Assembly (NCBI RefSeq): GCF_003688895.1
Contig: NZ_REFV01000011.1
Location: forward strand, 1 to 64,000
DNA: 64,000 nucleotides
Source of the DNA: Dokdonia sinensis
GTDB taxonomy: Bacteria; Bacteroidota; Bacteroidia; Flavobacteriales; Flavobacteriaceae
Direction: 5' to 3'
This document shows positions 161 through 58,810 of this stretch, piece after piece (the first letter of the stretch is position 1; each line of letters starts with the position of its first letter). The notes below the pieces were generated by a model. It was not told the origin of the DNA. It searched no databases and saw nothing but the letters and a program-made list of their open reading frames with translations. The position numbers and the translations under genes are program-made.

Positions 161-1516
161 CTATTTAATATAAACTGTTTTCTTATTTACAAACTCTTGA
201 ATCCCATCTGAAGATAACTCACGGCCATAGCCTGAAATCTTTGTTCCGCCAAAGGGTAAATTAGGGTTACTTTTTACCATATCATTTACAAATACAGCTC
301 CATCCTCAAAAAGGGGTATAAGTTTTTCAACACGCGCTTCATCCTTGGTAAAAATAGAAACTCCCAATCCAAAATCAGATTGGTTAACAAGGTCGACCGC
401 TTCTTCATCCGTCTTAAAGGTTGTTATAGAAATTACAGGCCCAAAGGTTTCTTCTTTGAAAATGGTCATTTCTGGTGTCACATCAGTAACTATTGTGGGT
501 TCAAAATATGCGCCGTGTCGGTGTCCACCTAGGAGTACTTTGGCTCCCTCGGAGATAGATTTTTGTAATTGTTCTTCGAGTTCTTTGGCGAGGTCTTCTC
601 TAGCCATTACACCTATATACGTGTCTGGATCCATTGGATCTCCTGACTTTAATTGGGTAACCGCTTTCGCGAAAGCGGACAAAAATTTATCATAAACTTT
701 ATCCTCAATAAGCAATCTTTTTCCAGCAATACAACTCTGTCCCGTATTCTGATATCGTGCCTGAACGCAAGTCTGAACTGTAGCATCAAAGTCACAATCG
801 TCAAAAACGACCAAGGCATTGCTCCCGCCCAACTCTAAAACGGACTTTTTAATCTCGCTCGCAGCCGTACTCGCCACAGCCGCGCCGGCCGGTTTACTTC
901 CTGTAAGCGTTATGGCCTTGATTCTAGGGTCGCGCACGATATTCTCAATGCGGTCACTACCTATGGCCATATTCTGGAAGCATCCCTTAGGCAATCCTGC
1001 GCGTTCAAAAACTTTTTGGATATTCTCTGCACTCTGCATCACATTACTTGCGTGCTTTAAAAGACCGATGTTTCCAGCCATAAGCGCAGGAGCAATAAAA
1101 CGGAATACTTGCCAGAATGGGTAATTCCAAGGCATTACAGCAAGTACAACACCTATGGGATCGTAACGTACATAACTTTTTGAGGCTTCGGTCTCTATGT
1201 TCTTAATTCCCAGATGCCGCTCTGAATTCTCTGCATAATACTCACATACCCAGGCACATTTTTCAACTTCGGCGATGGCTTGGGATATGGGCTTCCCCAT
1301 TTCTCGTGTCATTGTCTCCGCATACTCTTGTTTGTTTTTCTTGAGTTCCTTAGCAACATTAATCAAATGCGTGCTGCGTTCCTTATAAGGTGTCTTGCGC
1401 CAAGATTTGAATGTACTTTGTGCGCGTGTAAGTTTCTCTTCGATTTCATCAAGATTTAGTGCTTTAATGGTCGCAACTTCCTCTTGATTATATGGATTTA
1501 TGGATGTTATATTCAT
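161..1516 (-). CDS. NAD(P)-dependent aldehyde dehydrogenase, succinate-semialdehyde type
   Basis: Oxidises an aldehyde to the acid with NAD(P); the closest family by overall layout is succinate-semialdehyde dehydrogenase, but the substrate is inferred. The general base Glu is in the ELGGSN motif (about residue 228) and the catalytic Cys in NTGQSC (about residue 262); the C-terminal LPFGGTKISGYGRE motif is present. Length 451 is normal. I start at the ATG at 1516 (MNITSINPY) because the 21 residues available upstream do not look like family sequence. An iterated palindrome at 661-678 encodes AFAKA without an obvious insertion. It is a single-gene unit with its own terminator. Confidence 0.88.
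   Translation of the reverse strand: MNITSINPYNQEEVATIKALNLDEIEEKLTRAQSTFKSWRKTPYKERSTHLINVAKELKKNKQEYAETMTREMGKPISQAIAEVEKCAWVCEYYAENSERHLGIKNIETEASKSYVRYDPIGVVLAVMPWNYPFWQVFRFIAPALMAGNIGLLKHASNVMQSAENIQKVFERAGLPKGCFQNMAIGSDRIENIVRDPRIKAITLTGSKPAGAAVASTAASEIKKSVLELGGSNALVVFDDCDFDATVQTCVQARYQNTGQSCIAGKRLLIEDKVYDKFLSAFAKAVTQLKSGDPMDPDTYIGVMAREDLAKELEEQLQKSISEGAKVLLGGHRHGAYFEPTIVTDVTPEMTIFKEETFGPVISITTFKTDEEAVDLVNQSDFGLGVSIFTKDEARVEKLIPLFEDGAVFVNDMVKSNPNLPFGGTKISGYGRELSSDGIQEFVNKKTVYIK
661..678. repeat. Iterated palindrome, 18 bp perfect
   Basis: CCGCTTTCGCGAAAGCGG, inside the aldehyde dehydrogenase gene, where it encodes AFAKA in a surface-helix region. Confidence 0.9.
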
Positions 1517-1549
1517 TTTGAACTGGTTTTTCATAAAGTTAGTTTGAGA

Positions 1550-1557
1550 CAAACTTA
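1550..1557 (-). promoter_or_regulatory. Possible -7 element of the aldehyde dehydrogenase gene
   Basis: TAAGTTTG on the minus strand fits the Bacteroidota -7 consensus TAnnTTTG and sits 34 bases before the chosen ATG. No clear TTG lies at -33, so support is partial. Confidence 0.35.
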
Positions 1558-1682
1558 AATTAAGTGGGCTTAAGAGCATTTTAACGTGACGTAAATTAAA
1601 AGGTCTTAAGAAAATGTGAATTGATACGGTTTTAAGAAAATTCAGCTCTTAGAGCCGTAAATTTATAGAACCAATCATATTT

Positions 1683-2606
1683 ATGCTATTCCAACAAAAC
1701 AAAACAGAAAAAGATACCACAATAGTGGAGGCATTTCAGAATGCCGCTGATAATGTAATTGACCAATTGCCACAACTGGCAATGGGATTGCTTATCATTG
1801 TTTTAGGCGTTTTGATAGCTGGATGGATAGGAAAATTTGCACGTAGAAAGATTTCAGCAAAAACTGAAGATCCTTTAATGAGTAGATTTTTGGGGACGGC
1901 AATACGTTATACGTTTATAATTATAGCAATTATGCTCGCATTGAGGGCAGCTGGCCTTGGAGGTATTGCCGCTGGTATTTTGACAGCTGCTGGCGCTAGT
2001 GCCGTCGTTCTCGGTTTTGCCTTTAAAGACATAGGTGAAAATTTTATTGCTGGAGTGATTCTGGCCTTTAACAGGCCTTTTAATGTGGATGACACAGTAA
2101 TGGTGGGCGATAATTTTGGAAAAGTAAAAGCCCTAGATTTAAGATATACGAAACTCAAGACCTTCGACGGAAAAGATGTTTATATTCCAAATAGTGATGT
2201 CCTTACAGAACCTGTAACAAATTATACTGAGGATGGCTTCTTTAGATGGGATTTTATTATTGGAATTGCCTATGAAGATAATATCGAAGGTGCAAAAGAA
2301 ACGGTTTTAAAAGCACTAGCTCAAGAACCTAATGTCATTAATGACGAACTTCACGAGAATTTTGTTATTGAAGATGAACTCGCTACAAGCACTGTAAACC
2401 TAAAGGTTTTCTTTTGGGTGGACACAAAAGATTTTAGAAAACAAGCGCTTATTACAAAAGGTAATGTGGTGCGGAAAGTAAAAGAAGCATTAGAAGATGC
2501 TGGATATTATATGCCAGCAGACATACAAGAAATTAAACTTTATGGCGGCGTGAAAGAGTTTCCGCTTAGCTTTAGGCAACAAGCCGATACAAACATTGAA
2601 AATTAA
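1683..2606 (+). CDS. MscS-family mechanosensitive ion channel
   Basis: Predicted small-conductance mechanosensitive channel of the inner membrane that releases solutes on hypo-osmotic shock. The 307 residues show an N-terminal transmembrane helix (about 30-52), a second (75-90) and the Gly/Ala-rich pore helix (about 98-125, ending GFAFKDIGENFIAG), followed by the MscS beta domain (FNVDDTVMVGDNFGKV, YIPNSDVL) and a C-terminal alpha/beta domain. Length matches the short MscS class. It is followed after 11 bases by the hibernation-factor gene, so the two are probably co-transcribed and may answer to the same stress. Confidence 0.9.
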   Translation: MLFQQNKTEKDTTIVEAFQNAADNVIDQLPQLAMGLLIIVLGVLIAGWIGKFARRKISAKTEDPLMSRFLGTAIRYTFIIIAIMLALRAAGLGGIAAGILTAAGASAVVLGFAFKDIGENFIAGVILAFNRPFNVDDTVMVGDNFGKVKALDLRYTKLKTFDGKDVYIPNSDVLTEPVTNYTEDGFFRWDFIIGIAYEDNIEGAKETVLKALAQEPNVINDELHENFVIEDELATSTVNLKVFFWVDTKDFRKQALITKGNVVRKVKEALEDAGYYMPADIQEIKLYGGVKEFPLSFRQQADTNIEN

Positions 2607-2617
2607 AAAATACAACT

Positions 2618-2923
2618 ATGGAAGTAATATTTGAATACCACGATGTAACAGCTAGTGAAGCATTAGAAGCTTTTACAAGAGAACAACTAAATAAGTTAGG
2701 AGACAAATATCAATTTGTACACAGAGCAGATGTTTTCTTTAAACTAGAAAATACATCAAGTGACCAAACGGGAAAAATCTCTGGTGTGAGATTAAGTATG
2801 CCTGGACCTAGAATGTTTGCAGAGTCAAGTTCTGACGACTTTCACGCTTCTCTCAAAAAAGCGATAAGCGAGGTTGAACAACAACTGCGCAAAAAGAAAG
2901 AGAAAATGCAGTCTCACCACTAA
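2618..2923 (+). CDS. hpf: Ribosome hibernation-promoting factor, short HPF/RaiA type
   Basis: Small protein of 101 residues with the beta-alpha fold of the sigma-54 modulation/HPF family: EVIFEYHDVTASEALEAF at the start and the ISGVRLSMPGPRMFAESSSDDFHASLKKAISEVEQQL core. The family binds the 30S decoding centre and idles ribosomes in stationary phase or stress. It has no long C-terminal dimerisation domain, so it is the short form. It sits between the MscS gene and the ArsC-like gene in one short operon ending at the 3422-3453 terminator. Confidence 0.85.
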   Translation: MEVIFEYHDVTASEALEAFTREQLNKLGDKYQFVHRADVFFKLENTSSDQTGKISGVRLSMPGPRMFAESSSDDFHASLKKAISEVEQQLRKKKEKMQSHH

Positions 2924-2933
2924 AATTAAATTT

Positions 2934-3395: not shown

Positions 3396-3421
3396 GTTCA
3401 AACAATGTAATAAGTTATAAT

Positions 3422-3453
3422 AAAGCCCGATGAGCGATCGCTCATCGGGCTTT
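3422..3453. terminator. Bidirectional terminator
   Basis: A perfect 32-base palindrome from AAAGCCCGATGAGC through GATC to its complement, with flanking A and T runs, lies between convergent genes and would serve both. Confidence 0.85.
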
Positions 3454-4479: not shown

Positions 4480-4618
4480 AGATTGATTTTTCTTTTAAAA
4501 TTACTATAACTACCCATTGCGGGATAGACTTTTAAAAATCTTTAACTGCTATATTGATAAGACTTTAACAACCGTCTTCTTTCTAGATTGTTTACAAATG
4601 GTTGATATTTATTTTTTT

Positions 4619-4633
4619 GCTTTCGCGAAAGCG
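4619..4633. repeat. Iterated palindrome, intergenic
   Basis: GCTTTCGCGAAAGCG in the 191-base gap between the divergent nitroreductase gene and the 4671 gene, about 40 bases before the latter. Confidence 0.9.
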
Positions 4634-8115: not shown

Positions 8116-8970
8116 ATGAAACATATTTTGGGCTTTCTTGATACGCAACCGCTTTGGAAAAAAGAACAATTCGGTTTGAAGCAATTTGAGATGCCTGAGA
8201 TTGACCTTGAAACCTTTACGCCCGCTCCTATCCCTACAAAGCTCAGGCTTGGACATCAGGTAGAATATATATTCAAGCAACTCTTAGAACATTCGAGTCA
8301 CTACGAAATTCTTGCGCATAACATTCAGATCAAACGAGGGAGTGAAACCATAGGTGAGCTGGATTTTATAGTAAATGACTTACGCTTTCGCGAAAGCGGA
8401 ACATCTCTTCCCAGCAACAAAAAATTGCTCCACATCGAACTTACCTATAAATTTTACATCATAGACCCGTCTATATCAGAACCCATACACCGACTTATGG
8501 GTCCCAATAGAAAAGATATGTTCTTTACTAAAATGGAGAAAACGCGTGATAAGCAACTGCCACTACTATTCTCTAAAGAAAGCCAGCAGGTCTTAGCGCA
8601 CTTAGAAATTGACGTAAATGAGATAGAACAGCAAACGTATTATATAGGACAGCTTTTTGTACCCTACAATGAGAACATACCATCTATAAGACCTCTAAAT
8701 ATGGATTGCGTAACTGGGTTTTGGGTAAAGATGAAAGAGTTTGAAGATGTATGCCACTTCGGCTCCGCTCAGCACAGGTTTCGCGAAAGCATATTTTATA
8801 TCCCCCACAAATATGAATGGTTACATCAACCTCATAATGAAGTCGCGTGGCAATCGCACCTGGATATTTTAATGGAAATAAACATCAAACACATAAACAA
8901 TTACGCACCTATGATATGGATGAAAAATAGGGATGGCACGATTACTAAAGGTTTTGTGGTATGGTGGTAA
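8116..8970 (+). CDS. DUF1853 family protein
   Basis: 284 residues with the DUF1853 layout: LRLGHQVEYIFKQLL, ILAHNIQIKRG, then GELDFIV and LLHIELTYKFYI. The Asp in ELDFIV and the Glu/Lys in HIELTYK resemble a PD-(D/E)XK nuclease core, which I believe is the clan of this family, but activity is not established. Two iterated palindromes lie in the gene and encode RFRES at residues 90-94 and 221-225; the second belongs to a longer composite repeat. Both look like additions in loops. Confidence 0.75.
   Translation: MKHILGFLDTQPLWKKEQFGLKQFEMPEIDLETFTPAPIPTKLRLGHQVEYIFKQLLEHSSHYEILAHNIQIKRGSETIGELDFIVNDLRFRESGTSLPSNKKLLHIELTYKFYIIDPSISEPIHRLMGPNRKDMFFTKMEKTRDKQLPLLFSKESQQVLAHLEIDVNEIEQQTYYIGQLFVPYNENIPSIRPLNMDCVTGFWVKMKEFEDVCHFGSAQHRFRESIFYIPHKYEWLHQPHNEVAWQSHLDILMEINIKHINNYAPMIWMKNRDGTITKGFVVWW
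8383..8398. repeat. Iterated palindrome, 16 bp perfect
   Basis: CGCTTTCGCGAAAGCG inside the DUF1853 gene, read as RFRES. Confidence 0.9.
8757..8790. repeat. Composite repeat: CTTCGGCTCCGCTCAGCACA joined to the palindrome
   Basis: A second conserved segment is followed by GG and TTTCGCGAAAGC, all within the DUF1853 gene (peptide HFGSAQHRFRES). The same arrangement recurs at 25167-25201. Confidence 0.8.
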
Positions 8971-14567: not shown

Positions 14568-15185
14568 CAATTCCATTTGTAAGAAATTCTTTAAAATCCT
14601 CTCCCCAACAGCACTCGACTTCTCTGGATGAAACTGGGTTCCGTAGAAGTTCGCTTTCGCGAAAGCGCCACTATAATCAACTCCATAATTGCACGTAGCA
14701 ATAGTATATTTAGTCACGGGAGCATAGAAACTGTGCACCATGTAAATAAATGATTCTTCAGGAATATCTTTAAACAATGAAGACTTTAGATCCGAAATAG
14801 TATTCCATTGAATCTGCGGAATTTTGAGAGCTACATCTTGACCATCACGGTCACTAAACGGAGGAGAAGTGAAGCGTACCACATCTACATCAAAAATCCC
14901 TAAACCTTCAGTATTCCCCTCCTCAGAGCCATTGCACATCAACTGCATCCCAAGACAAATGCCTAAAACTGGCTGTGTGAGCGTATGGATCACCTTGTCC
15001 AATCCTGTTTCTTTGAGCTTTGTCATCGCGCTACTCGCCTCTCCTACTCCTGGGAAAATGACTTTATCTGCACTTCGAATTTCTTCCTCTGAATCACTCA
15101 AAATTGCTTCGAACCCTAAGCGTTCAATGGCAAATTTGATACTTTGGATATTTCCTGCTCCGTAATTAATAATAACTATTCTCAT
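14565..15185 (-). CDS. hisH: Imidazole glycerol phosphate synthase, glutamine amidotransferase subunit
   Basis: 206 residues; supplies ammonia to HisF. The class I triad is visible: Cys-77 in LGICLGMQ, and His/Glu in QFHPEKS near residue 187. The YSGAFAKANFYG segment just before QFHPEKS is coded by the iterated palindrome at 14652-14667; the family usually has a similar-length segment here (for example SFxKDNFYG), so the palindrome fits without an insertion. A 182-base repeat-filled spacer separates it from hisB. Confidence 0.95.
   Translation of the reverse strand: MRIVIINYGAGNIQSIKFAIERLGFEAILSDSEEEIRSADKVIFPGVGEASSAMTKLKETGLDKVIHTLTQPVLGICLGMQLMCNGSEEGNTEGLGIFDVDVVRFTSPPFSDRDGQDVALKIPQIQWNTISDLKSSLFKDIPEESFIYMVHSFYAPVTKYTIATCNYGVDYSGAFAKANFYGTQFHPEKSSAVGERILKNFLQMEL
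14652..14667. repeat. Iterated palindrome, 16 bp perfect
   Basis: CGCTTTCGCGAAAGCG within hisH, read as AFAKA next to the catalytic His/Glu motif. Confidence 0.9.
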
Positions 15186-15370: not shown

Positions 15371-16504
15371 CAACATCCCCTTTGTCGAGGGTAAAATCAT
15401 CTTCTCCGCATCGCGCTTTACGGCAACCTTAATCGCCTTTGCAAATGCTTTAAAGATTGCCTCTATCTTGTGGTGTTCATTTGTGCCTTCGGCTTTGATA
15501 TTTAAGTTTGCTTTTGCACCGTCTGTAAAGGATTTAAAGAAATGATAAAACATTTCTGTAGGCATCTTACCTATCATCTCACGTTTAAAATCGGCTTCCC
15601 AGACGAGCCAGTTTCTTCCTCCAAAATCTATGGCAACCTGTGCTAGGCAGTCGTCCATAGGCAAGCAAAAACCGTAGCGTTCTATACCTAATTTACTCCC
15701 TAATGCTTTCGCAAAAACTTCGCCCAACGCAATCGCAGTATCTTCGATGGTATGGTGCTCATCTACTTCCAGATCTCCTTTAACCGTGATGTCCAAGTCC
15801 ATCTGACCGTGGCGTGCAATTTGGTCCAGCATATGATCGAAGAAGGCGATTCCTGTATCAATTTGTGACTTACCCGTTCCATCGAGATTGAGCTTAATGT
15901 TGATATCGGTTTCATTGGTCTTTCGCGAAAGCATAGCTACCCTACTCTCCAGCTTTAAAAACTCATATATTTTTTGCCAATCGTTTGTTTCTAAAGCAAT
16001 GTCTTTATTGAGCTCTTCTTCAGAAATTGTGATTTCTCCAGTTCCTAAATTGGTATTATCATTAATATAGATTCCTTTGGCTCCAAGATTGGTCGCGAGT
16101 TGCATATCCGTTAGCCTGTCGCCGATTACAAATGAGTTTGCGAGGTCGTAATCCTCAGAAAAGTACTTTGTAAGTAACCCAGTTCCTGGCTTTCTGGTGT
16201 CCTTATTTTCGTGGGGAAAAGTTCTGTCCAGAAAAACTTCGTCAAAAATAACTCCCTCGTTCTCAAACGACTTCATTATAAAATTATGAACGGGCCAGAA
16301 TGTATCTTCTGGAAAAACATCTGTTCCTAATCCGTCTTGATTCGTTATCATTACGAGCTCATAGTCCAGCTCCTGCGCAATTTTTCCCAGCCACGTAAAG
16401 GCTTTAGGGTAAAAGATCATCTTCTCAAATGCGTCGATTTGCTCATCTACAGTTTCTTTTATAATGGTACCGTCGCGGTCTATAAATAATACTTTCTTTT
16501 TCAT
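15368..16504 (-). CDS. hisB: Bifunctional histidinol-phosphatase / imidazoleglycerol-phosphate dehydratase
   Basis: 378 residues. The N-terminal HAD phosphatase domain (1-~165) starts with LFIDRDGTI (nucleophile Asp) and has the TRKPGTGLL and [10 protein letters not shown] loops; the C-terminal dehydratase (~185-378) carries the manganese-site motifs [25 protein letters not shown] and [16 protein letters not shown]. The fused form is usual in Bacteroidota and gamma-proteobacteria. The palindrome at 15920 codes for LSRK in the [11 protein letters not shown] start of the second domain, a natural family sequence. Confidence 0.96.
15920..15932. repeat. Iterated palindrome, 12-bp core
   Basis: CTTTCGCGAAAGC in hisB, read as LSRK in the conserved SRKTxETDI motif. 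Confidence 0.8.
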
Positions 16505-17574: not shown

Positions 17575-18854
17575 CTCAACTTATTTAAACGCAGGGTAAC
17601 GGCATTCTTATGCGCATCCAGTCCTTCGGCTTCGGCCATTAACTCTATGGCGTTTCCTATGTTTTGGATACCTGTTTCAGTAATTTTCTGAAAGGTCATA
17701 CTTTTCATAAAACTTTCCAGATTTACACCGCTGTACTGCTTTGCATAGCCATTTGTAGGTAAGGTATGGTTTGTACCAGAAGCATAATCGCCAGCACTTT
17801 CGGGCGTATAATTCCCTATAAAAACGGAGCCAGCATTGATAATTCCGTTCACATAAAAATCTTCGTCCTCCACACAAACTATGAAATGCTCTGGTCCATA
17901 TTTGTTAATCAAATCAAGTGCAATGGCATCATTCTCTACATAAATGAGCTTGCTATTTTCTATTGCTTTTTGAGCTATACGCTTTCGCGAAAGCGTACTC
18001 ATCTGTACTTCAATTTCCTTTTCTACATCCGAAATCAATTGCTTAGAGGTCGAAACCAAAATTACCTGACTATCTACTCCGTGTTCTGCCTGACTGAGTA
18101 AATCTGACGCTACAAAAGAAGCATCTGCCGTATCATCTGCCACGACAAGGAGTTCGCTAGGTCCAGCGGGCATATCTATAGATACACCAAACTTAGTCGA
18201 TAATTGTTTTGCCACAGTTACAAATTGGTTTCCTGGGCCAAATATCTTGTACACCTGAGGAATAGTCTCTGTGCCAAAAGTCATTCCGGCAATAGCTTGG
18301 ATTCCGCCCACTTTAAAGATCTTAGTCACACCGCATAAATTTGCCGTGTATAAAATGGCGGGATTTATATTTCCTTGTTTATCTGGTGGTGTACACAACA
18401 CGATTTCTTCACATCCCGCAATATTAGCAGGAACAGCGAGCATTAATATGGTAGAAAAAAGTGGCGCTGTGCCTCCCGGAATGTACAATCCTACCTTCTG
18501 GATAGGTCGTTTTTCTTGCCAGCAGGTAACTCCTTCGGTGGTTTGGACGGTAATTCTTTCGGTTTTTTGAGCGGTGTGAAATTTTTCGATATTGCTTTTG
18601 GCGAGTTGTATCGCTTCTTTCAGGTCGTCAGAAATAAAGTTCTTTGCGTCTTCTATTTCTTTCGCGGAAGCGTAATTATTCTCAAGCTCCACATTATCAA
18701 AAATGGAGGTGTACTTTGCTACGGCTGTATCTCCGTTTTCACGCACGTCCTTAAAGACACCGTTCACGGTTTCCTCTATGTCGTCTACTGTTTGTGTCGG
18801 GCGTTTTAAAATTGCCTCCCACTCGGCTGGATTTGGATTAAAACTTTTGTTCAT
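17571..18854 (-). CDS. hisD: Histidinol dehydrogenase
   Basis: 427 residues from the ATG at 18854, which overlaps the hisG stop by one base; the 26 residues upstream belong to another frame of hisG. It makes the last two NAD-dependent oxidations to histidine. Motifs: GLYIPGGTAPLFST, GPGNQFVTVAKQL, the zinc-site QAEHGVDSQ and the catalytic GPEHF. The STLSRKRIAQKAI segment is coded by a perfect 18-base palindrome; relatives have a similar TLPRKEIAEKA segment, so codons seem rewritten rather than inserted. Confidence 0.96.
   Translation of the reverse strand: MNKSFNPNPAEWEAILKRPTQTVDDIEETVNGVFKDVRENGDTAVAKYTSIFDNVELENNYASAKEIEDAKNFISDDLKEAIQLAKSNIEKFHTAQKTERITVQTTEGVTCWQEKRPIQKVGLYIPGGTAPLFSTILMLAVPANIAGCEEIVLCTPPDKQGNINPAILYTANLCGVTKIFKVGGIQAIAGMTFGTETIPQVYKIFGPGNQFVTVAKQLSTKFGVSIDMPAGPSELLVVADDTADASFVASDLLSQAEHGVDSQVILVSTSKQLISDVEKEIEVQMSTLSRKRIAQKAIENSKLIYVENDAIALDLINKYGPEHFIVCVEDEDFYVNGIINAGSVFIGNYTPESAGDYASGTNHTLPTNGYAKQYSGVNLESFMKSMTFQKITETGIQNIGNAIELMAEAEGLDAHKNAVTLRLNKLR
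17979..17996. repeat. Iterated palindrome, 18 bp perfect
   Basis: ACGCTTTCGCGAAAGCGT in hisD, read as TLSRKR. Confidence 0.9.
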
Positions 18855-21406: not shown

Positions 21407-21422
21407 CGCTTTCGCGAAAGCG
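21407..21422. repeat. Iterated palindrome, intergenic
   Basis: CGCTTTCGCGAAAGCG between the terminator of the HhH gene and the convergent SPFH gene. Confidence 0.9.
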
Positions 21423-22274: not shown

Positions 22275-24308
22275 TTAAGTAAGTCCATTATACTTGCGCA
22301 TAAACCACTCTAACGCAAGTAAGGCAACTAATGCTGCAAGTAACCAACGCCAATCTATTAAAGGTACAACATTTTCGTTGCTCTTTTGGATAGGCCGGTA
22401 TCTATCGTCAGTCACCAGATCATTGATGAGCATTTCCGTGTCGTCTATTGCGTATAGAGTCCCTTTAGAATCAGACGATAGCTTTCGTAGAGAAGCTATA
22501 TTTGCATTGAGAAATTGCTGCTCTACCTCAAAAGGGATAATAGTAAAACTCCCGCTTCTGGATATTCCTTGATCTTGTGCCGTTACTGTAAAAGAATACT
22601 CTCCTGCATCCAAATTACTCAAATCTATCTCATAACCGTTGCGTTGCAAAAGGAAAGGTGCAGCATACACTTCTTTTGTTTCTTTATTAACCACACGCAT
22701 ATTAAGCGTAGCCCTAGCGTCAAAAACATAATTCTTATCAAAATACTGACAGTAAATTTTTACATCACCATTGCCGTAATAAAAAGAATTAAAATCTACA
22801 TCGAGTCTTGATTTTTTCTTGTCAGAAGCTGCATATTGAACAAGTTTATCTACAAAATTATCGAAATCTTCAAAACTCCTTTTATCTAAAAAACTTTGTG
22901 CTCTCCATCTCCATAAGCCACTTCCCAGCAGATATACTGACCTCTTTCCGCCTTGGTCTGCTGCAAGGAGTAAAGGATCATCTGTACGGACTCGACCTAT
23001 ACGCTGATTAAGCGCAATATCAACCTCTCCATTTCTGGTGACTTCTCCAAAGCTATTCTCTAACGGCGGAAAATTCTCAAAACCTAAATCATCTATAAGA
23101 AAAGAAGAAAAATTCAAGTTAAGGTCTGCAAGTACGTCTTCCTTCTGACCTGTGATTTCCTTTCTTATTATAGATTGTACGCCGTTCAAAAATCGCCAAT
23201 CTGTCTCTTTTCCAGTAACTATAAAACTATTTTTCCCGAGACGATTGATCTCATCAAAAACGTTACTAAAATTTCGGTTGGGCTGATACATTAAGATTAA
23301 CTGATAATCGTTTAACTTTCCAAAACCCTCTGAGGGCTTTAGTAATGTGACAGAACGCAATCTGTTGCTTTCTATACTCTTTTTTAAAACACCGATATCC
23401 GGATGAACTAAATCTGAGATAATGGCAACGTTTGTCTTTTGGTCTATAACCTCAATAGCAAAATTCTTATAGTTATTGGTTGTATTCTTTTCACTATCTA
23501 TACTACTAAGAGCAATAGAAAACTGACGTACTCCAACCACCTCCGCAGGGAGAAGTACATTTATAACTTTAGAAACAACATTGGGTGAAAAATTAAGTGT
23601 TTCTCGATGTAATGTTTTTCCAGATGAGCTTATCGTAAGTTGCGTACTTATATCATTGGTGCCATTATAAGTGGCAAAAATTTCTACTGGAAACTGATTA
23701 TTGATATACGCATAGCGATTTACGTTAATCTGACCTAATTTGAGGTCGTCATAAACGATGGTATCTCCAGCCACGAGAGTATAAATAGATTGTTTAGTAT
23801 TTAGTAATGTGTACGCGTAATTTTTACCAAAGGTTTGATTACCATCACTCAACAGCACAACTGGAGCGACTTCGTTTTTATATAAAGTTTTTAATGAGTT
23901 AAGCGCTTGGGCAATATTTGTTTGTTTTTCAGAGAATGAGAGACTGTCTAGAGGTTCCGTAGTGGTTCCAAATTTAAAAAAGGTAATATCAAATGCTTCT
24001 TGAAGTTGTTCGCTTTCGCGAAAGCGTACCACCGCCTCTCTTACCCGTTTATCATATCCCAAGTGCTCAATACTTGCCGAATTGTCTACCGCTATAGCAA
24101 GTGCAGGCTTTTCTGTAAAGTAGGTAACTTGTTTGTATTTGGGATTTATTAGGAGTAGTAAGAGCCCGAATACAGTAAGAAAACGAAGCAACGCATAGAT
24201 TCGGTTACGACTCGTTTTATATTTTGATTTATAAAAATATTGAAACACCGCAATTCCCAAAGCGAGTATTGCGGCACCAATAATTAAAAATATCGTTGAT
24301 GTTTGCAT
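22275..24308 (-). CDS. Large membrane protein with VWA domain
   Basis: 677 residues: two N-terminal transmembrane helices (about 4-24, 38-58), a von Willebrand A domain (about 70-190) with the metal-site start AIAVDNSASIE, a long extracytoplasmic region of beta-sandwich character, and a C-terminal helix (WRWLLAALVALLALEWFM). This resembles proteins annotated as BatA-like or VWA membrane proteins in Bacteroidota, but the function is unknown. A palindrome inside the VWA domain encodes RFRES in VVRFRESEQLQ. Confidence 0.8.
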   Translation of the reverse strand: MQTSTIFLIIGAAILALGIAVFQYFYKSKYKTSRNRIYALLRFLTVFGLLLLLINPKYKQVTYFTEKPALAIAVDNSASIEHLGYDKRVREAVVRFRESEQLQEAFDITFFKFGTTTEPLDSLSFSEKQTNIAQALNSLKTLYKNEVAPVVLLSDGNQTFGKNYAYTLLNTKQSIYTLVAGDTIVYDDLKLGQINVNRYAYINNQFPVEIFATYNGTNDISTQLTISSSGKTLHRETLNFSPNVVSKVINVLLPAEVVGVRQFSIALSSIDSEKNTTNNYKNFAIEVIDQKTNVAIISDLVHPDIGVLKKSIESNRLRSVTLLKPSEGFGKLNDYQLILMYQPNRNFSNVFDEINRLGKNSFIVTGKETDWRFLNGVQSIIRKEITGQKEDVLADLNLNFSSFLIDDLGFENFPPLENSFGEVTRNGEVDIALNQRIGRVRTDDPLLLAADQGGKRSVYLLGSGLWRWRAQSFLDKRSFEDFDNFVDKLVQYAASDKKKSRLDVDFNSFYYGNGDVKIYCQYFDKNYVFDARATLNMRVVNKETKEVYAAPFLLQRNGYEIDLSNLDAGEYSFTVTAQDQGISRSGSFTIIPFEVEQQFLNANIASLRKLSSDSKGTLYAIDDTEMLINDLVTDDRYRPIQKSNENVVPLIDWRWLLAALVALLALEWFMRKYNGLT
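24011..24026. repeat. Iterated palindrome, 16 bp perfect
   Basis: CGCTTTCGCGAAAGCG inside the VWA gene, read as RFRES. Confidence 0.9.
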
Positions 24309-25166: not shown

Positions 25167-25201
25167 CTTTGACTGCGCTCAGCACAAGTTTCGCGAAAGC
25201 G
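25167..25201. repeat. Composite repeat, intergenic copy
   Basis: CTTTGACTGCGCTCAGCACA, AG and TTTCGCGAAAGCG in the 211-base gap between fabG and sucD. Confidence 0.85.
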
Positions 25202-28407: not shown

Positions 28408-28423
28408 CGCTTTTGCGAAAGCG
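28408..28423. repeat. Degenerate iterated palindrome
   Basis: CGCTTTTGCGAAAGCG, one change from the perfect form, between efp and lpxA. A weaker copy (CGCTTTTGCGAAAA) lies about 115 bases to the left. Confidence 0.7.
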
Positions 28424-31674: not shown

Positions 31675-32901
31675 TTACCCTTTCGGTTTTGGGTAACATA
31701 TATAGTTTTTAACGACAGCTTTGGTAAGTGACTTAAGACTCAACTGGTCACTAGCCTTTACTATATCTACAACTTTATAATTATCTGTAAGGATATTTAT
31801 TCCACCATGTGTATAATTATAGGCTTGATTAGAAATTGTACCTGTAAAAACAAAATAAGAAGCCTCGTATTCTGAAATACCAAATCGTTCGACTAATGCG
31901 GCTTTTTGTTTGTCTAATTTTGCTTTCGCAAAAGCTTTCTTACGAATCTTTACCTTAGGTAAATCTCTATTGATAATACACTTAGACAACTCTCTTAATA
32001 CAAAGTCATCGTGCTCACACCATTCTTTCATTGCCGAAATAATATCGTAGTCATCTAATTTAGAAAACGTCTCTAGAATTTCTGGAGTAAAATTTCCCTT
32101 GGTGATCTTATTTTTAAGAAAATACAGCAATGCAGAACTAGCAGGTAAGCTTATCCCTTTGTGCGACAATTCCTTTGCCCTTTTAAGCACTCTAGTTATA
32201 AGCTGTTCTGCAACTAGGCTCGTTTTATGTAAGTATACCGTCCAATACATAAGCCTCCGCGCTACTAAAAATTTTTCGACAGTATAAATACCCTTAGGAC
32301 TGACTACCAGATTATCATCTTTTACACAAAGCATTGCGATAATGCGCTCTGTATTGATATTGCCCTCTGCCATTCCTGTGTAAAAACTATCACGCTTGAG
32401 GTAATCCGTTCTATCCATGTCCAATTGACCGGAAACCAGCTGATTTAAAAATGCTCGCTCGTACGAACCTTTAAAAATTTTAATGGCCAGCGTTAAACTT
32501 CCGTTAAACTCAGCATTGAGCGCCTCCATAAAATAGAGTGATATAAGCTCGTGGTGTACGCCATCTACGATACTATGCTCCATTGCATGTGAGAAAGGAC
32601 CGTGTCCTATATCGTGCAATAAAATTGCTATTAATGTCGCCTCTTCTTCTTCATTTGAGATGGCTACACCTTTGTTACGCAGGGTCTCAAGAGCTTTTTG
32701 CATAATATGCAAGCAACCTACTGCGTGATGAAATCTAGTGTGATGCGCTCCTGGATAAACAAGATACGAGAGCCCCATTTGAGAAATGCGTCGCAATCTT
32801 TGAAAATAAGGATGCTGGATGAGATTAAAAATGACACCATTAGGGATGGTAATAAAACCATATATAGGGTCGTTTATTATTGTAGTTTTGTGTGGCTGCA
32901 A
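31675..32901 (-). CDS. HD-superfamily phosphohydrolase (dNTPase-like), TTG start
   Basis: 408 residues if started at the TTG at 32901, which gives Met-Gln-Pro-His-Lys-Thr-Thr-Ile-Ile-Asn-Asp, the expected family N-terminus. No ATG exists upstream in frame; another TTG at 32991 would add 30 residues including palindrome-coded RFRES and leave only 53 bases to porX. Metal-site motifs: HHTRFHHAVGCLHIM, HDIGHGPFSHAMEH and QLDMDRTDYLKRD. The family hydrolyses (d)NTPs or related nucleotides; the substrate is not readable. It heads the lpx operon and diverges from porX. Confidence 0.85.
   Translation of the reverse strand: MQPHKTTIINDPIYGFITIPNGVIFNLIQHPYFQRLRRISQMGLSYLVYPGAHHTRFHHAVGCLHIMQKALETLRNKGVAISNEEEEATLIAILLHDIGHGPFSHAMEHSIVDGVHHELISLYFMEALNAEFNGSLTLAIKIFKGSYERAFLNQLVSGQLDMDRTDYLKRDSFYTGMAEGNINTERIIAMLCVKDDNLVVSPKGIYTVEKFLVARRLMYWTVYLHKTSLVAEQLITRVLKRAKELSHKGISLPASSALLYFLKNKITKGNFTPEILETFSKLDDYDIISAMKEWCEHDDFVLRELSKCIINRDLPKVKIRKKAFAKAKLDKQKAALVERFGISEYEASYFVFTGTISNQAYNYTHGGINILTDNYKVVDIVKASDQLSLKSLTKAVVKNYICYPKPKG
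31922..31935. repeat. Degenerate iterated palindrome
   Basis: GCTTTCGCAAAAGC in the HD gene, one change from perfect, read as AFAKA within a Lys-rich helix. Confidence 0.7.
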
Positions 32902-32932: not shown

Positions 32933-32950
32933 CCGCTTTCGCGAAAGCGG
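32933..32950. repeat. Iterated palindrome, 18 bp perfect
   Basis: CCGCTTTCGCGAAAGCGG in the divergent gap between the HD gene (with the TTG start) and porX. Confidence 0.9.
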
Positions 32951-37765: not shown

Positions 37766-37781
37766 CGCTTTCGCGAAAGCG
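37766..37781. repeat. Iterated palindrome, intergenic
   Basis: CGCTTTCGCGAAAGCG between the convergent DUF4258-like and proline dehydrogenase genes, where a terminator would be expected. Confidence 0.9.
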
Positions 37782-39059: not shown

Positions 39060-40136
39060 ATGACCCCGATTGCTGCAGCTACTTATGATATCGTTTTCAA
39101 CACAAATGGATACGACCGGCTCAATAAATTGCTTAGAGATAGTACCTACTCTAAGCTTTTTATTATTGTTGATAATCATACCCACGAGCATTGTTTACCC
39201 TCCTTTTTAAGTATGCTTGAAACTGAACTTGAAATGGAGATTGTCGAAGTCCCATCAGGCGAGGAAAACAAAACAATAGACACCTGCGTACAAGTCTGGG
39301 AAGCCCTTGCAGATCTAAATGCAGATAGGAAAGCACTCATCATTAATGTAGGCGGTGGCGTTGTTACAGATCTGGGAGGATTTATCGCTAGTACTTTTAA
39401 GCGCGGAATGGATTTTATCAATATCCCTACTTCCCTACTATCTATGGTCGATGCCTCTGTGGGCGGAAAAACGGGTGTAGATTTAGGCTCACTTAAGAAT
39501 CTTGTAGGTGTCATTAACAATCCGGAAATGGTACTTATAGATGCTGGATTTCTAGCAACCTTGCCTCAAAACGAAATGCGCTCTGGCCTCGCCGAAATGT
39601 ATAAACACGGTCTTATTGCAGATAAAAATTACTGGGAAAAGCTTTCAAACCTTGAGGCAATGACATCAGATGATTTAAACCATTTAATATACGAAAGTGT
39701 CATCATTAAAAATACAATTGTCCTTGAAGATCCCAGAGAACAAGGGAAGCGCAAGACTTTAAACTACGGTCACACACTAGGGCACGCCATTGAGTCGTAT
39801 TGCTTGAGCTCTGAGAATCGCAAGACCTTATTGCACGGAGAAGCTATTGCGATAGGAATGATTTTAGAATCATTTATTTCAGAAACATTATGTGGGTTTC
39901 CCAGCGATGATTTAAAAAACGTGACAAATATCCTGCTCAATATGTATGAGAACGTTGATTTTGACCAAAATGAAATTGACCACATTATCAAACTCCTAAA
40001 ATACGATAAGAAAAATGCTAACGGCATTATAAATTTTGTTTTACTTGAAGATATAGGAAAGGCCGTTGTAGATAAGCAGGTATCTAATGATTTGATAAAG
40101 AAAGCATTTGAGTATTACGCTTTCGCAAAAGCGTAA
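39060..40136 (+). CDS. aroB: 3-dehydroquinate synthase
   Basis: 358 residues; second shikimate step, NAD and metal dependent. GGGVVTDLGGFIASTFKRG (NAD), PTSLLSMVDASVGGKTGVD, the zinc ligands in RSGLAEMYKHGLI and LNYGHTLGHAIE. The last residues YAFAKA and the stop are encoded by a near-perfect iterated palindrome (40117-40134), so the very end of the protein looks set by the repeat. Confidence 0.95.
   Translation: MTPIAAATYDIVFNTNGYDRLNKLLRDSTYSKLFIIVDNHTHEHCLPSFLSMLETELEMEIVEVPSGEENKTIDTCVQVWEALADLNADRKALIINVGGGVVTDLGGFIASTFKRGMDFINIPTSLLSMVDASVGGKTGVDLGSLKNLVGVINNPEMVLIDAGFLATLPQNEMRSGLAEMYKHGLIADKNYWEKLSNLEAMTSDDLNHLIYESVIIKNTIVLEDPREQGKRKTLNYGHTLGHAIESYCLSSENRKTLLHGEAIAIGMILESFISETLCGFPSDDLKNVTNILLNMYENVDFDQNEIDHIIKLLKYDKKNANGIINFVLLEDIGKAVVDKQVSNDLIKKAFEYYAFAKA
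40117..40134. repeat. Degenerate iterated palindrome at the aroB 3' end
   Basis: ACGCTTTCGCAAAAGCGT, one change from perfect, ending inside the aroB stop codon region. Confidence 0.75.
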
Positions 40137-44883: not shown

Positions 44884-45729
44884 CTAGGAAGTACTATTCC
44901 AAATATCCCAAGCCGCCTGTGCTTGTAGTTCTAACATTCTGAGCCCATTGAGAACATCTGCATCTTGTGCCTTTGCTTTGGCAAGAAATGTAGTTTCTGG
45001 CGGATTGTAAATAAGATCATAAGCAATATGCGTAATATTGAGAAAATCGTACGGTATATCTGGGTGGAGCTCGACTTCTGGATAGGTTCCTAATGGCGTA
45101 CAGTTTACAATAAATGTCGCGTTGCCGATAATTTCTTCTGTGAGATCCTCATAAGAAATGGTGGTTTTTGTTCGCTTTCGCGAAATATATTGACACGAGA
45201 CTCCTAATAATTCAAAAGCATACACCACCGCTTTAGATGCTCCTCCTGTTCCCATAATGAGCGCATTTATGGGTAAAGCAAGAGCATTTTGCTCTTCCTT
45301 GTGGGCTGATTTTTTTTCTGTATTTGATACAAGCTCAGTATCCCCTTTCGCGAAAGCGGAAATATCATCTGCCCCACCAAACAGCGTCTCTCCATATTGC
45401 TCTAAAAGTGAATTTCCGAATCCTATGAAATCCGTATTAAAACCTTTGAGCTCACCATTAGGCATACGCTTTATGGTGTTCACAGCTCCTATTGCGGCAC
45501 TATGTTTATCAAGTGTATCTAGTAATGGGATTATGGCTTCCTTATATGGAATGGTGACATTGTAACCAGAAACAGTAGCATCTTTGAGCTTATTTTGTAC
45601 TTCTTGAATAGTAGCGCAATCAAAGTTTTCGTAAGTCGCATTACGTTCTAAAGCAGTAAACTTTGCTCTGAAATAATTACGAGAGAAAGAATATCCTATG
45701 TTCTTTCCAAACAAGCCGTACTTATCCAT
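44884..45729 (-). CDS. aroE: Shikimate dehydrogenase with a loop insertion
   Basis: 281 residues from the ATG at 45729, which overlaps the DUF368 stop by eight bases. Substrate domain: GLFGKNIGYSFSRNYF, SGYNVTIPYKE (catalytic Lys) and NTDFIGF; NADP fold: IMGTGGASKAV. About 35 extra residues (about 117-153, low-complexity, charged) lie between the two, just before the NADP motif. A palindrome encodes AFAKG within them. A second half-palindrome codes SRKR at residues 183-186. The enzyme is otherwise intact. Confidence 0.92.
   Translation of the reverse strand: MDKYGLFGKNIGYSFSRNYFRAKFTALERNATYENFDCATIQEVQNKLKDATVSGYNVTIPYKEAIIPLLDTLDKHSAAIGAVNTIKRMPNGELKGFNTDFIGFGNSLLEQYGETLFGGADDISAFAKGDTELVSNTEKKSAHKEEQNALALPINALIMGTGGASKAVVYAFELLGVSCQYISRKRTKTTISYEDLTEEIIGNATFIVNCTPLGTYPEVELHPDIPYDFLNITHIAYDLIYNPPETTFLAKAKAQDADVLNGLRMLELQAQAAWDIWNSTS
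45173..45185. repeat. Iterated palindrome, half-degraded
   Basis: CGCTTTCGCGAAA, right arm decayed, in aroE (peptide SRKR). Confidence 0.75.
45345..45359. repeat. Iterated palindrome in the aroE insertion
   Basis: CTTTCGCGAAAGCGG, read as AFAKG. Confidence 0.85.
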
Positions 45730-49447: not shown

Positions 49448-49463
49448 CGCTTTCGCGAAAGCG
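49448..49463. repeat. Iterated palindrome, intergenic
   Basis: CGCTTTCGCGAAAGCG, 50 bases before the DUF2141 ATG and followed by an AT-rich TATATTTA, so it would lie within the promoter. Confidence 0.9.
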
Positions 49464-51275: not shown

Positions 51276-51842
51276 TTACTCACTGGACAGTAACTTATCT
51301 AAGGTTTTCCTTACAGAATCGCTATTCCAGTCTTGCGCACCCTGCTCTTTTATCACGATATTTCCCTCTTTATCTATAATATAATTTGTTGGGATGCTGC
51401 TTTCATAAAGGGGTTTTGGGGTTTCTTGAGCTGGAATGAATACCGGCAGATTGTATCCTTTTTTTTGTAAAAATGCTTTGACTACTTCGGCATCTTCGCT
51501 GGTGATGAGTGCAAAATCTACGCGGTCACCGTAGTCATTATATAGCTCTTGGATAGACGGCATTTCGGCTATGCAGGGTGGACACCAAGTGGCCCAGTAG
51601 CTCATAAATGTTACTTCTCCTTGCCCTATGGGTGCGCTCACAGTATCACCATCTAGTGAGGTGAGGCTGTAATTAAAAGGTTGTAGCTGAATTTGGTCCG
51701 CTTTCGCGAAAGCGGAAGGAGAAAACACCATCATCTTTACCTTATTTACCATCACCTGAATAGGCTGCCTCGTCTGCGGAATGATAAGCAACACAAGCAC
51801 AACAATAAATATGAGGTTTTTCCAATTAAAACTTTTTTTCAT
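51276..51842 (-). CDS. TlpA-like thioredoxin, membrane-anchored
   Basis: 188 residues from the ATG at 51842. Signal-anchor helix (about 9-25) then a thioredoxin fold with CPPC at Cys-87 and Cys-90 (YWATWCPPCIAEMPSI). Such proteins reduce disulfides in the periplasm, for cytochrome maturation or general repair. A 20-base perfect palindrome in the linker (SPSAFAKADQIQ) encodes AFAKA, so the linker appears repeat-derived. The gene has its own frame end next to a terminator upstream. Confidence 0.88.
   Translation of the reverse strand: MKKSFNWKNLIFIVVLVLLIIPQTRQPIQVMVNKVKMMVFSPSAFAKADQIQLQPFNYSLTSLDGDTVSAPIGQGEVTFMSYWATWCPPCIAEMPSIQELYNDYGDRVDFALITSEDAEVVKAFLQKKGYNLPVFIPAQETPKPLYESSIPTNYIIDKEGNIVIKEQGAQDWNSDSVRKTLDKLLSSE
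51697..51716. repeat. Iterated palindrome, 20 bp perfect
   Basis: TCCGCTTTCGCGAAAGCGGA in the TlpA-like gene. Confidence 0.92.
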
Positions 51843-54168: not shown

Positions 54169-54188
54169 TACGCTTTCGCGAAAGCGTA
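54169..54188. repeat. Iterated palindrome, 20 bp perfect
   Basis: TACGCTTTCGCGAAAGCGTA in the gap right of the Crp/Fnr gene. Confidence 0.92.
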
Positions 54189-54641: not shown

Positions 54642-54645
54642 GATT

Positions 54646-56172: not shown

Positions 56173-56226
56173 ACTATTTACAACAAGGGATAGAGCATAT
56201 AAAAAGTAAATAATTCACCCACAAAA

Positions 56227-56252
56227 AAACTCCGCTGTAACCAGCGGAGTTT
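56227..56252. terminator. Bidirectional terminator between lipoprotein and aconitase
   Basis: AAACTCCGCTG, loop TAAC, CAGCGGAGTTT, flanked by A and T runs. Confidence 0.85.
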
Positions 56253-56278
56253 TCTATTATTTATAAGCCAACTTAGGG

Positions 56279-58552
56279 TTAAGCAGCATTCTCCTTCTTA
56301 ATAAGGTTTAAAGCACTTCCCTCTCGGTACCAAGCAATTTGAGCCGCATTGTACGTGTGGTTTACTTTAATAGTATCCTTGCTTCCATCTGCGTGTACGA
56401 TTTCCACAGTAAGTGGTTTGTCTGGTGCAAAGTCTGCAATATCTACAAAGTTAAAGGTGTCATCTTCTTGAATAAGGTCATAGTCTGCTTCGTTTGCAAA
56501 CGTGAGTCCTAACATTCCTTGCTTCTTTAAGTTTGTCTCGTGTATACGGGCAAATGACTTAACAATTACTGCGGCTACGCCTAAGTGACGTGGCTCCATT
56601 GCTGCGTGCTCGCGAGAAGAACCTTCTCCATAGTTGTGATCTCCCACGACCACCGTGTAAATACCAGCTTTTTTATATTCACGCTGGGTATCTGGAACTC
56701 CGCCATACTCACCTGTCAACTGGTTCTTAACAAAGTTTGTTTTCTTTCCGAAAGCATTTACAGCTCCTATCAGACAATTGTTAGATATATTATCCAAGTG
56801 TCCTCTAAAACGTAGCCAAGGTCCTGCCATAGAGATATGGTCTGTTGTACATTTTCCAAAAGCTTTGATAAGCAACTTCATCCCTTGCATATCGCTGTCC
56901 TTAATAGGCTCAAAAGGAGTAAGAAGCTCTAAGCGTTCTGAGTCTTCTGCTACTTTTACTTCGACCTTGCTGCCGTCTTCTACTGGAGCGAGATAGCCAT
57001 TATCTTGCACTTCAAAACCTTTAGGAGGTAATTCCCACCCTGTAGGCTCGTCAAATTTTACTTCCTGTCCATCCTCATTAATTAGTGTATCTGTCATCGG
57101 ATTAAAATCCAAACGTCCGGCTATTGCAATTGCAGCAGTCACCTCTGGAGATGCTACAAAAGCGTGCGTGTTCGGATTACCATCTGCTCGCTTTGCAAAG
57201 TTTCTATTAAAGGAGTGTACAATACTGTTTTTAGGAGCATTTTTAGGGTCACTGTAACGCGCCCATTGTCCGATACAAGGTCCACAAGCATTTGTAAAAA
57301 TCTTTGCATCTAGTTTTTCAAAAATCCCTAAGATACCGTCACGCTCTGTTGTAAATCTTACAAGTTCAGAGCCTGGATTAATACCTAATTCAGCCTTCAT
57401 CTTAAGTCCTTTATCTATTGCTTGTTGTGCTATAGAAGATGCTCTAGATAAATCTTCGTAAGACGAGTTTGTACAAGAACCTATAAGTCCCCACTCTACT
57501 TGAAGCGGCCACTCGTTTTTAGTTGCTTTGTCTGTCATATCTTTCCCTACAGTCGTAGAAAGGTCTGGAGTAAACGGCCCATTAAGTAGTGGTCCTAGTT
57601 CAGAAAGATTAATATCTATTACTTGATCAAAATATTGCTCTGGGTTTGCGTATACCTCTGCATCTGCCGTAAGATACTCTTTTACCTTATTTGCTGCATC
57701 TGCAACATCTGCGCGGTCTGTAGCACGTAAATAGCGCTCCATAGACTCGTCATATCCAAAGGTAGAAGTTGTAGCTCCTATCTCTGCTCCCATATTACAA
57801 ATCGTTCCTTTTCCAGTACAGGACATTGCTGTAGCCCCAGGACCAAAATATTCTACAATTGCTCCTGTTCCTCCTTTTGCGGTTAGAATTTCGGCAACTT
57901 TTAGGATAACATCCTTAGGTGCTGTCCATCCAGAGAGTTTTCCAGTAAGTCTTACCCCAATGAGTTTTGGGAATTTAAGCTCCCAAGCCATACCTGCCAT
58001 CACATCTACCGCATCTGCACCTCCTACTCCTATGGCAACCATACCGAGACCACCAGCATTTACTGTGTGAGAATCTGTACCTATCATCATTCCTCCAGGG
58101 AATGCGTAGTTTTCTAATACTACTTGATGGATAATTCCCGCTCCTGGTTTCCAAAAACCGATACCGTATTTATTTGATACCGATTCTAAAAAGTCAAAAA
58201 CCTCACTAGAAACATCATTTGCGTTCTTTAGGTCTGCTACTGCACCGTCTTTTGCTTGAATTAAGTGATCACAATGTACTGTTGTTGGTACCGCAACTTT
58301 ATCCTTTCCAGCTTGCATAAACTGTAATAATGCCATTTGTGCCGTAGCATCCTGACAAGCGATACGATCTGGTGCGAAGTCTACATAATCCTTACCGCGT
58401 GTAAAAGCTTTTGTCGCTTTTCCTTCCCAGAGGTGGGAATATAAAATCTTCTCAGAGAGTGTCAAAGGTTTTCCTACAAGGTCACGAGCAGCGTCTACGC
58501 GCTCTGACATATTTGCATAAACCTTCTTGATCATATCAATATCAAATGCCAT
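56279..58552 (-). CDS. Aconitate hydratase
   Basis: 757 residues; citrate/isocitrate isomerisation with a 4Fe-4S cluster. Cluster ligands are in [11 protein letters not shown] (Cys about 363) and ACGPCIGQW (two Cys about 426 and 429). [23 protein letters not shown] and the C-terminal swivel [18 protein letters not shown] are intact. This layout and length match the mitochondrial-type aconitase found in Bacteroidota. Confidence 0.95.
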
Positions 58553-58625
58553 ATATAGTTTTTTTTAGTTTGGATTATTGTGCAATTACACCTTCAAATA
58601 GCTTTACGAAATTACGAAATCGTAG

Positions 58626-58708
58626 TGACAATGGCAATAGGCAAAGAGATATGGCTACGTGGCGCTACACTTTGTACTTTCGGCAAAAGGTTAGACCTGC
58701 CATTGTCA
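58626..58708. repeat. Distant inverted repeat
   Basis: TGACAATGGCA (58626-58636) and TGCCATTGTCA (58698-58708), 61 bases apart, upstream of aconitase. Could be a long hairpin or an operator pair. Confidence 0.5.
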
Positions 58709-58722
58709 TATCCACAAAAAGA

Positions 58723-58759
58723 ACCGCCTCAAATTATCATAATAACAATTTGAGGCGGT
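58723..58759 (-). terminator. Terminator of the 58825-59316 lipoprotein gene
   Basis: ACCGCCTCAAATT and AATTTGAGGCGGT arms, then TTCTTTTTG on the minus strand. Confidence 0.75.
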
Positions 58760-58794
58760 AGTAGGATTTTTTACACTTAGGGTGTTGCGGAGTC

Positions 58795-58810
58795 CGCTTT
58801 CGCGAAAGCG
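58795..58810. repeat. Iterated palindrome, intergenic
   Basis: CGCTTTCGCGAAAGCG between the lipoprotein stop and its terminator. Confidence 0.9.

Follow-up and report, generated by a model that had tools for sequence, protein, structure and literature searches.

The 64-kb stretch of Dokdonia sinensis analysed here (contig NZ_REFV01000011.1, positions 1 to 64,000; hereafter the window) raises the question of what one palindrome could be doing when it recurs throughout a bacterial genome. The element in question is the 10-mer core TTTCGCGAAA, which is the centre of the 16-mer CGCTTTCGCGAAAGCG and of a symmetric unit of about 52 bp, and which was found in hundreds of copies in Dokdonia and two other genera. 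Its copies are best read, with a probability of roughly 0.42, as cis-acting genome-maintenance sites that would be bound by a putative dimeric protein.

Iteration of the palindrome in the window and the genome

Analysis of the window (38% GC) revealed exactly 18 copies of the 10-mer, compared with 0.15 ± 0.39 and a maximum of 2 in dinucleotide shuffles (n = 100), which bears out the claim of a preliminary description that the core occurs 18 times, far above expectation. The coordinates given there were correct to within a few bases, most of them pointing close to where the 16-mer, not the 10-mer, begins, and the near-copies it named were present at 18657, 28408, 31921, and 40118. Perfect symmetry, described as reaching 18 to 20 bases in several copies, extended over 20 bp at 17983, 32937, 51702, and 54174 and over 18 bp at 665, and 10 of the 18 copies were genic by rough open reading frame (ORF) calls, the same number as described. 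In the whole genome to which the window belongs (G000; 3.65 Mb in 43 contigs, GC content of 39.4% over 400 kb), the exact 16-mer was counted 630 times and its inner 14-mer GCTTTCGCGAAAGC 857 times, as against no copy of a reversed control word. Neither a frequency near expectation nor a single local cluster was seen, confirming that the iterated palindrome is real and genome-wide.

A symmetric unit of about 52 bp

The anatomy of the motif was analysed in 464 kb of G000 containing 135 cores. In this sample, the core held 135 of the 139 occurrences of TTCGCGAA and 135 of the 185 of TCGCGA, and the numbers of 16-mers with 0, 1, 2, 3, and 4 mismatches were 85, 24, 21, 31, and 32, compared with 0, 0, 0.05, 1.3, and 14.4 for shuffled palindromes. 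The conserved unit measured about 52 bp and had a sharp boundary at ±26 (edge at −27), whether the copies were genic or intergenic. Its flanks were symmetric: read 5' to 3' toward the centre, positions −26 to −10 were T/G-rich and poor in C (2–8% per bin vs a background of 16–20%), A was depleted only from about −21 inward, and weaker biases appeared at single positions, e.g., −22, −15, and −12. This flank bias was fainter in G229, and the form of G279 (T at −17, −14, and −11; T or C at −9) is a dialect of it.

A hairpin or terminator repeat was considered for these symmetric copies and rejected, due to the gene context and the gain and loss by substitution (both below) and to arms that do not covary beyond the marginals, since arm-to-arm complementarity equalled the marginal expectation at nearly all positions. 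In addition, half-sites outside full sites were only weakly enriched in each of three versions of the count (20 vs 11.0 ± 6.8, 22 vs 9.2 ± 5.7, and 10 vs 2.2 ± 2.6), made in a sample with 85 full 16-mers. Because the arms hardly covary and lone half-sites are only weakly enriched, the motif looks like a site for a dimeric protein rather than a hairpin, and, judged from this anatomy, the DNA-binding signal first proposed appears to hold up.

Spacing and gene context

Intergenic DNA was several-fold denser in cores, since only 79 of the 135 sampled copies were genic though ~89% of the sequence is coding, with the other 56 lying in the ~11% that is intergenic. All three reading frames were used among these 79 copies, as had been claimed from the window, and the 186 genic copies of a larger sample were divided among the frames as 91, 49, and 46. 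The 55 intergenic copies of known context (37 between co-directional, 13 between divergent, and 5 between convergent genes) were roughly proportional to the DNA available in each gap type (32.1, 9.9, and 7.5 kb, respectively). Around the chromosome of the single-contig genome G016, all 20 sampled 20-kb blocks held 5–9 cores each, and no origin or terminus bias was seen in these blocks.

Moreover, the copies were spaced evenly. In 400 kb, only 3 of 116 neighbour distances were below 1 kb, compared with 31 expected when genic and intergenic densities were preserved, and the coefficient of variation (CV) of the spacing was 0.58 vs 1.01 ± 0.09 expected. Pair counts (summed bins) gave 5 pairs closer than 1 kb vs 42.5 expected in the window's species and 14 vs 77.4 in the other sampled Dokdonia, revealing in both an exclusion zone of about 1 kb with no clear longer period and suggesting that one site serves its ~1-kb neighbourhood. 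Of 414 control words with comparable copy numbers (402 seven-base and 12 eight-base words; a nine-base set yielded one word only), none was as evenly spaced as the motif: the minimum CV was 0.776 and 0.871 in the two sets vs 0.583 for the motif, and the minimum fraction of distances below 1 kb was 0.157 and 0.182 vs 0.026. The result was replicated in one genome each of the genera g209 and g11, with a CV of 0.72 in G229 (P = 0.008; 3 gaps below 1 kb vs 9.3 expected) and of 0.66 in G279 (P = 0.0015; 1 vs 7.9). Exceptions were few, namely pairs 170 and 393 bp apart in the window and one pair 47 bp apart on contig C1.

Gain and loss of individual sites

The sites of the window are given below by position (near-copies last; no strand is assigned to any of them), together with what was found at the same place in relatives.

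662..677, full 16-mer with 18 bp of symmetry, within an aldehyde dehydrogenase-like ORF (named by eye)
4618..4633, copy with 1 mismatch, intergenic
8383..8398, full 16-mer, genic
8776..8791, 10-mer core with 3 mismatches in 16, genic, joined to the rarer GCTCAGCACA repeat
14652..14667, full 16-mer in hisH; core shared with G011, G014, and G015, the other covered relatives being without it by substitution
15918..15933, copy in hisB with 3 mismatches in 16; among 13 Dokdonia relatives, the core in 9 and a one-base variant in 4
17980..17995, full 16-mer in hisD; the core recurs in all 13 other Dokdonia tested, and three genomes of the two other motif-rich genera have it too
21407..21422, full 16-mer lying between two convergent genes; G008, G009, and G016 keep the position
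24011..24026, full 16-mer, genic; all 11 other Dokdonia covered show the core, as does G229
25186..25201, 10-mer core, intergenic, joined to the GCTCAGCACA repeat; G008, G009, and G016 retain the core
32934..32949, full 16-mer with 20 bp of symmetry, intergenic; G008, G009, and G016 retain it with changed flanks
37766..37781, full 16-mer between convergent genes
45173..45188, 10-mer core with a degraded right outer arm, within an aroE-like ORF (named by eye)
45343..45358, copy with 1 mismatch, likewise within this aroE-like ORF and 170 bp from the preceding copy; one of the few close pairs
49448..49463, full 16-mer, intergenic, between divergent genes
51699..51714, full 16-mer with 20 bp of symmetry, within a thioredoxin-like ORF (named by eye), read as SAFAKA
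54171..54186, full 16-mer with 20 bp of symmetry, intergenic
58795..58810, full 16-mer, intergenic
28408..28423, near-copy with 1 mismatch
40118..40133, near-copy with 1 mismatch
18657..18672, near-copy with 3 mismatches
31921..31936, near-copy with 3 mismatches; full core at this place in G229

In an aligned 22-kb stretch with ~73% DNA identity, the window's seven sites were kept at five (G008), six (G009), and five (G016) places, compared with 6–7% of random 10-mers, while two of the seven were found in G229 and none in the motif-free G018. The hisD core was present in all 13 other Dokdonia tested (of 17) and in G229, G279, and G429, and was absent from the four other genomes covered at the site (G018, G023, G091, and G183; G029, G082, and G141 matched with the site itself uncovered). 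Since the hisD sequences of motif-poor genomes are already near the motif, the genera may have converged here. At the same place in hisB and hisH, Dokdonia relatives showed one-base or few-base variants, with no insertion or deletion in the columns shown. As read from these alignments, genic sites are gained and lost by substitution; the intergenic alignments were too gappy to judge.

These alignments bear directly on one of the roles proposed in the preliminary description, a mobile mini-element, here considered as a repetitive extragenic palindrome (REP) or a miniature inverted-repeat transposable element (MITE). Spread by insertion would suit the intergenic surplus of copies and a rarer dispersed repeat that adjoins 3 of the 135 sampled sites, but copies in hisD, hisB, and hisH arise and vanish among Dokdonia with no insertion or deletion at the site (intergenic copies align too poorly to tell) and the arms scarcely covary, and the candidate was rejected. 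A terminator or regulator site fares no better, given that the counts per gap type follow the DNA available and that 79 of 135 copies are genic, and this whole group of explanations is considered very improbable. The rarer repeat itself (CGCTACTTYGACTNCGCTCAGCACA-like) was located at 8766 and 25176 in the window and at 322610 and 307686 on contig C1 of G000, and in three of the four cases it adjoins the motif.

Taxonomic distribution

Among 59 genomes, the 14-mer was present in 369–905 copies in all 18 Dokdonia, in 578 copies in G027 (another genus), and in 6 copies in G029, with none in the remaining 39. A survey of 397 Flavobacteriaceae genomes revealed at least one copy in 79, whereas hundreds of copies (408–903) occurred only in G000, G011, G027, G279, G429, and G229, which represent the three genera g1 (Dokdonia), g11, and g209; all other genomes of the family had at most 19. 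Across 394 genomes of the phylum, 22 had any copy, G000 alone had more than six, and those outside the family had at most one. In the hisB tree, g11 was placed far from Dokdonia; the tree does not settle the position of G229. The larger Dokdonia genomes (G011, G013, G014, and G015; 4.3–5.5 Mb) had 570–903 copies, not above the number in genomes of 3–3.6 Mb, as if the accessory DNA of the larger genomes were motif-free.

Among 80 named his-operon loci in relatives, the 76 of sufficient length were scanned for other iterated palindromes, and only words of 3–4 copies and tandem-type repeats were found; the 80 loci contained ten cores, eight of them in the hisB coding sequence of Flavobacterium, where they look like ordinary codons. 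A different repeat, AATTCNGAATT, was observed 13 times in 19.5 kb at locus L072 (G429, g11).

Phage contigs and genomic islands

The motif was also detected on DNA other than the resident chromosomes. A virus scan returned at least 80 loci, and 11 virus records behind them were examined, seven of which were chosen for their several copies. These seven (12–40 kb) had 2–5 copies of a 12-mer each, and the other four had one each among the matches listed. Fourteen of 20 proteins encoded by the first seven matched a PHROG, including a Mu-type transposase, integrase, tape measure, terminase, portal, baseplate hub, and head protease. Between related phage contigs (79% identity), the core after the integrase gene was kept while its surroundings differed. 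Three partial and distant Winogradskyella/Flavobacterium phages (one protein 37–47% identical) had no core in 98 kb. A search for Dokdonia prophages with PF03237 gave a match in 1 of 18 genomes, and phage relatives sought by transposase and integrase were found at one and four loci, respectively.

Small clusters of copies in other genera sit on related islands, with aligned pieces ~67–97% identical between Flavobacteriaceae genera. The metal-resistance island at L198 carried genes for a copper/silver-type efflux system, a multicopper oxidase-like protein, and a P-type ATPase-like protein (all named by eye from ORFs). The island family (L195–L199, L201–L203, L205, L206, and L209) showed a Dokdonia-like motif density in host genomes with 3–8 copies in all, and copy pairs 933 bp apart recurred in five genomes.

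The presence of sites on phage contigs and on a transferred island suggests a benefit inside the cell that is tied to the DNA bearing the site, one of the grounds for the maintenance reading below. A rival explanation is a licence for self DNA, whereby a nuclease or defence complex would spare DNA with a site every few kilobases and phages and islands of these hosts would have copied it. The copies in the seven phage records and on the metal-resistance island, together with the even spacing and the direction-independent symmetry, fit this idea, but the motif itself was the criterion for picking the phage records, and prophages could gain sites through residence alone. We also know of no cognate nuclease, and this explanation is regarded as unlikely.

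Candidate partner proteins

Five protein families were searched for in 13 motif-rich genomes, with eight motif-poor genomes for comparison. A canonical ParB was present in one copy in each of the 13 (with one further match in G011), and its helix-turn-helix (HTH) region was common to motif-rich and motif-poor genera; an extra or altered ParB/Noc paralogue was consequently rejected as the binder. The C5 methyltransferase family PF00145 was found in 6 of 13 motif-rich and 3 of 8 motif-poor genomes, and the N4/N6 methyltransferase family PF01555 was above the cut-off in 2 of 13 and 3 of 8. ComEC was detected in 13 of 13 and 8 of 8. A PilB/GspE-type ATPase was above the cut-off in 5 of 13 motif-rich genomes (G004, G011, G013, G017, and G279; open frames of 464–479 aa) and in none of the eight motif-poor ones; no match passed the cut-off in the other eight, including the single-contig genomes G006, G008, G009, G016, and G229. 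No partner is named because none of the five families was conserved in and specific to the motif-rich genomes.

These counts weigh on two further explanations, both foreshadowed in the preliminary description. The first is a palindrome tied to an orphan DNA methyltransferase that would read an inner sequence such as TCGCGA. Cyanobacterial highly iterated palindromes (HIPs) track methyltransferases, according to the passages drawn on here (PMC4390886), and the strong iteration and the location of TCGCGA largely within the motif would agree. Nevertheless, neither PF00145 nor PF01555 tracked the motif, other methyltransferase families lying outside this search, so that methylation is not supported for the two families tested. 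Moreover, usual methyltransferase recognition sites are far shorter than the 52-bp unit, and a link of this kind is quite improbable.

The second is a palindromic DNA uptake sequence, in which a surface receptor would prefer site-bearing DNA and transformation would spread the site, as with the DNA uptake sequence (DUS) of Neisseriaceae and the uptake signal sequence (USS) of Pasteurellaceae. Copy number, intergenic excess, use of all frames, even spacing with a ~1-kb exclusion zone, T-rich flanks, genus-level flank dialects, and gain and loss by substitution are all DUS/USS-like; significant even spacing, a non-coding excess, and gradual evolution are described for uptake sequences in the part of PMC1939737 used here, and the competent relative Riemerella columbina prefers its own DNA, as stated in the cited portion of PMC7965970. 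ComEC in all 13 motif-rich genomes and the restriction of the PilB/GspE-type ATPase to motif-rich genomes point the same way. On the other hand, ComEC does not discriminate, the ATPase had no match above the cut-off in eight of the 13 motif-rich genomes, sites are also carried by phage contigs and by an island in other genera, and the uptake sequences treated in the same part of PMC1939737 are not palindromes. Uptake, also among the roles first suggested, is thus possible as regards its machinery and weakened by the missing ATPase matches and the copies on phage contigs, and, although the main rival of the maintenance reading, it is entertained only tentatively. A copy of the motif was observed ~60–75 bp before the ComEC domain match at G011:C9:101340 and G016:C1:104330; it probably lies inside comEC, and one inherited site could explain both genomes.

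Proposed function of the sites

In the cis-acting maintenance reading, each copy would be one dyad-symmetric binding site of about 52 bp for a sequence-specific dimeric DNA-binding protein, and the sites would act in cis over a few kilobases. Any resident DNA would gain from one nearby site, and a second within about 1 kb would add little, which could account for the even spacing: sites would rise by point substitution wherever coding permits and end evenly spaced. The likeliest role would be in genome maintenance, either as a nucleoid anchor or domain site or as a direction-independent counterpart of Chi, in which case the site may signal to a repair or degradation machine that it should stop or recombine. 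Maintenance is ranked first, uptake second, and the licence third because of the dimer-like anatomy, the exclusion zone, and the presence on phage contigs and islands.

Several observations weigh against this reading. The arm test gave deviations among its 22 positions (position 10, z = +2.0; position 12, z = −3.0; position 22, z = −2.0) and, in a smaller set, P = 0.014 at position 15, and the weak half-site excess could also reflect monomer sites or decayed copies. Because G008, G009, and G016 are closely related, their three conservation figures are not independent, and with their stretches partly orthologous the second spacing set is partly non-independent as well. The phage records were selected for motif presence, and residence in a chromosome could also explain the sites on phage and island DNA. 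Even spacing and intergenic excess are reported also for uptake signals, in the part of PMC1939737 cited above. Finally, no binding protein was found among the five families tested in 13 motif-rich genomes.

In a bolder version, held to be doubtful, the sites may be a direction-independent licence or checkpoint for whatever DNA resides in these bacteria: a dimer on a 52-bp site, needed every ~1–4 kb, would halt a degrading or loop-extruding machine or hand the DNA to recombination. The GT-rich strands that enter the dyad from both sides could then be polar entry tracks of the machine, and phages and mobile islands of these hosts may have copied the site pattern.

Relation to known systems and significance

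parS and Noc sites are palindromes with TTTC...GAAA half-sites bound by dimers of the ParB family, and the Dokdonia motif shares the long palindrome and such half-sites. Unlike them, it has a shorter half-site gap, by a 2 bp difference, and hundreds of sites with no origin or terminus bias seen. Chi is a short, asymmetric, strand-biased octamer. Like Chi, the motif occurs about once per few kilobases, has a GT-rich strand leading in, and would favour any resident DNA, but it is a palindrome and so has no strand orientation, and it is even over the 20 blocks of G016.

The nearest known kinds are HIP1 and the uptake sequences, as both are described in the cited parts of PMC4390886 and PMC1939737. 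The early comparison with HIP1 holds in that a palindrome is in vast genome-wide excess, although the word differs: CGCTTTCGCGAAAGCG does not contain the HIP1 octamer GCGATCGC. HIPs, as characterised in the same portion of PMC4390886, are likewise iterated palindromes, genome-wide, lineage-specific, and both genic and intergenic; the Dokdonia motif belongs to another phylum and differs in its 16-bp core and 52-bp symmetric unit instead of 8–10 bp, in its strong repulsion below 1 kb, and in having no tracking C5 or PF01555 methyltransferase. With DUS and USS it shares copies in at least the hundreds, even spacing, a non-coding excess, a near-copy excess, and group-specific forms (the cited part of PMC1939737), whereas a perfectly symmetric 16 bp with symmetric flanks, the occurrence on phage contigs, and the lack of a conserved pilus ATPase set it apart. 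The even spacing of uptake sequences was deemed too weak for a role in compaction (same part of PMC1939737), and the role of HIP1-type repeats is still termed a mystery (same portion of PMC4390886). A literature search for the word and the palindrome, which left most subscription journals outside and in which papers with TTTCGCGAAA were judged by title and the start of the abstract, returned no title naming this repeat.

Beyond the preliminary description, the 52-bp extent, the even spacing, and the genus-level distribution are newly seen. The motif represents an independent HIP-type case in culturable marine Bacteroidota, with an unusually clean anatomy in which a symmetric 52-bp unit and a 1-kb exclusion zone go with a sharply bounded taxonomic range and flank dialects. 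It may also serve as a marker of DNA that has left Dokdonia and the two other genera, and identification of its binder could open the function of genome-wide iterated sites to direct testing.

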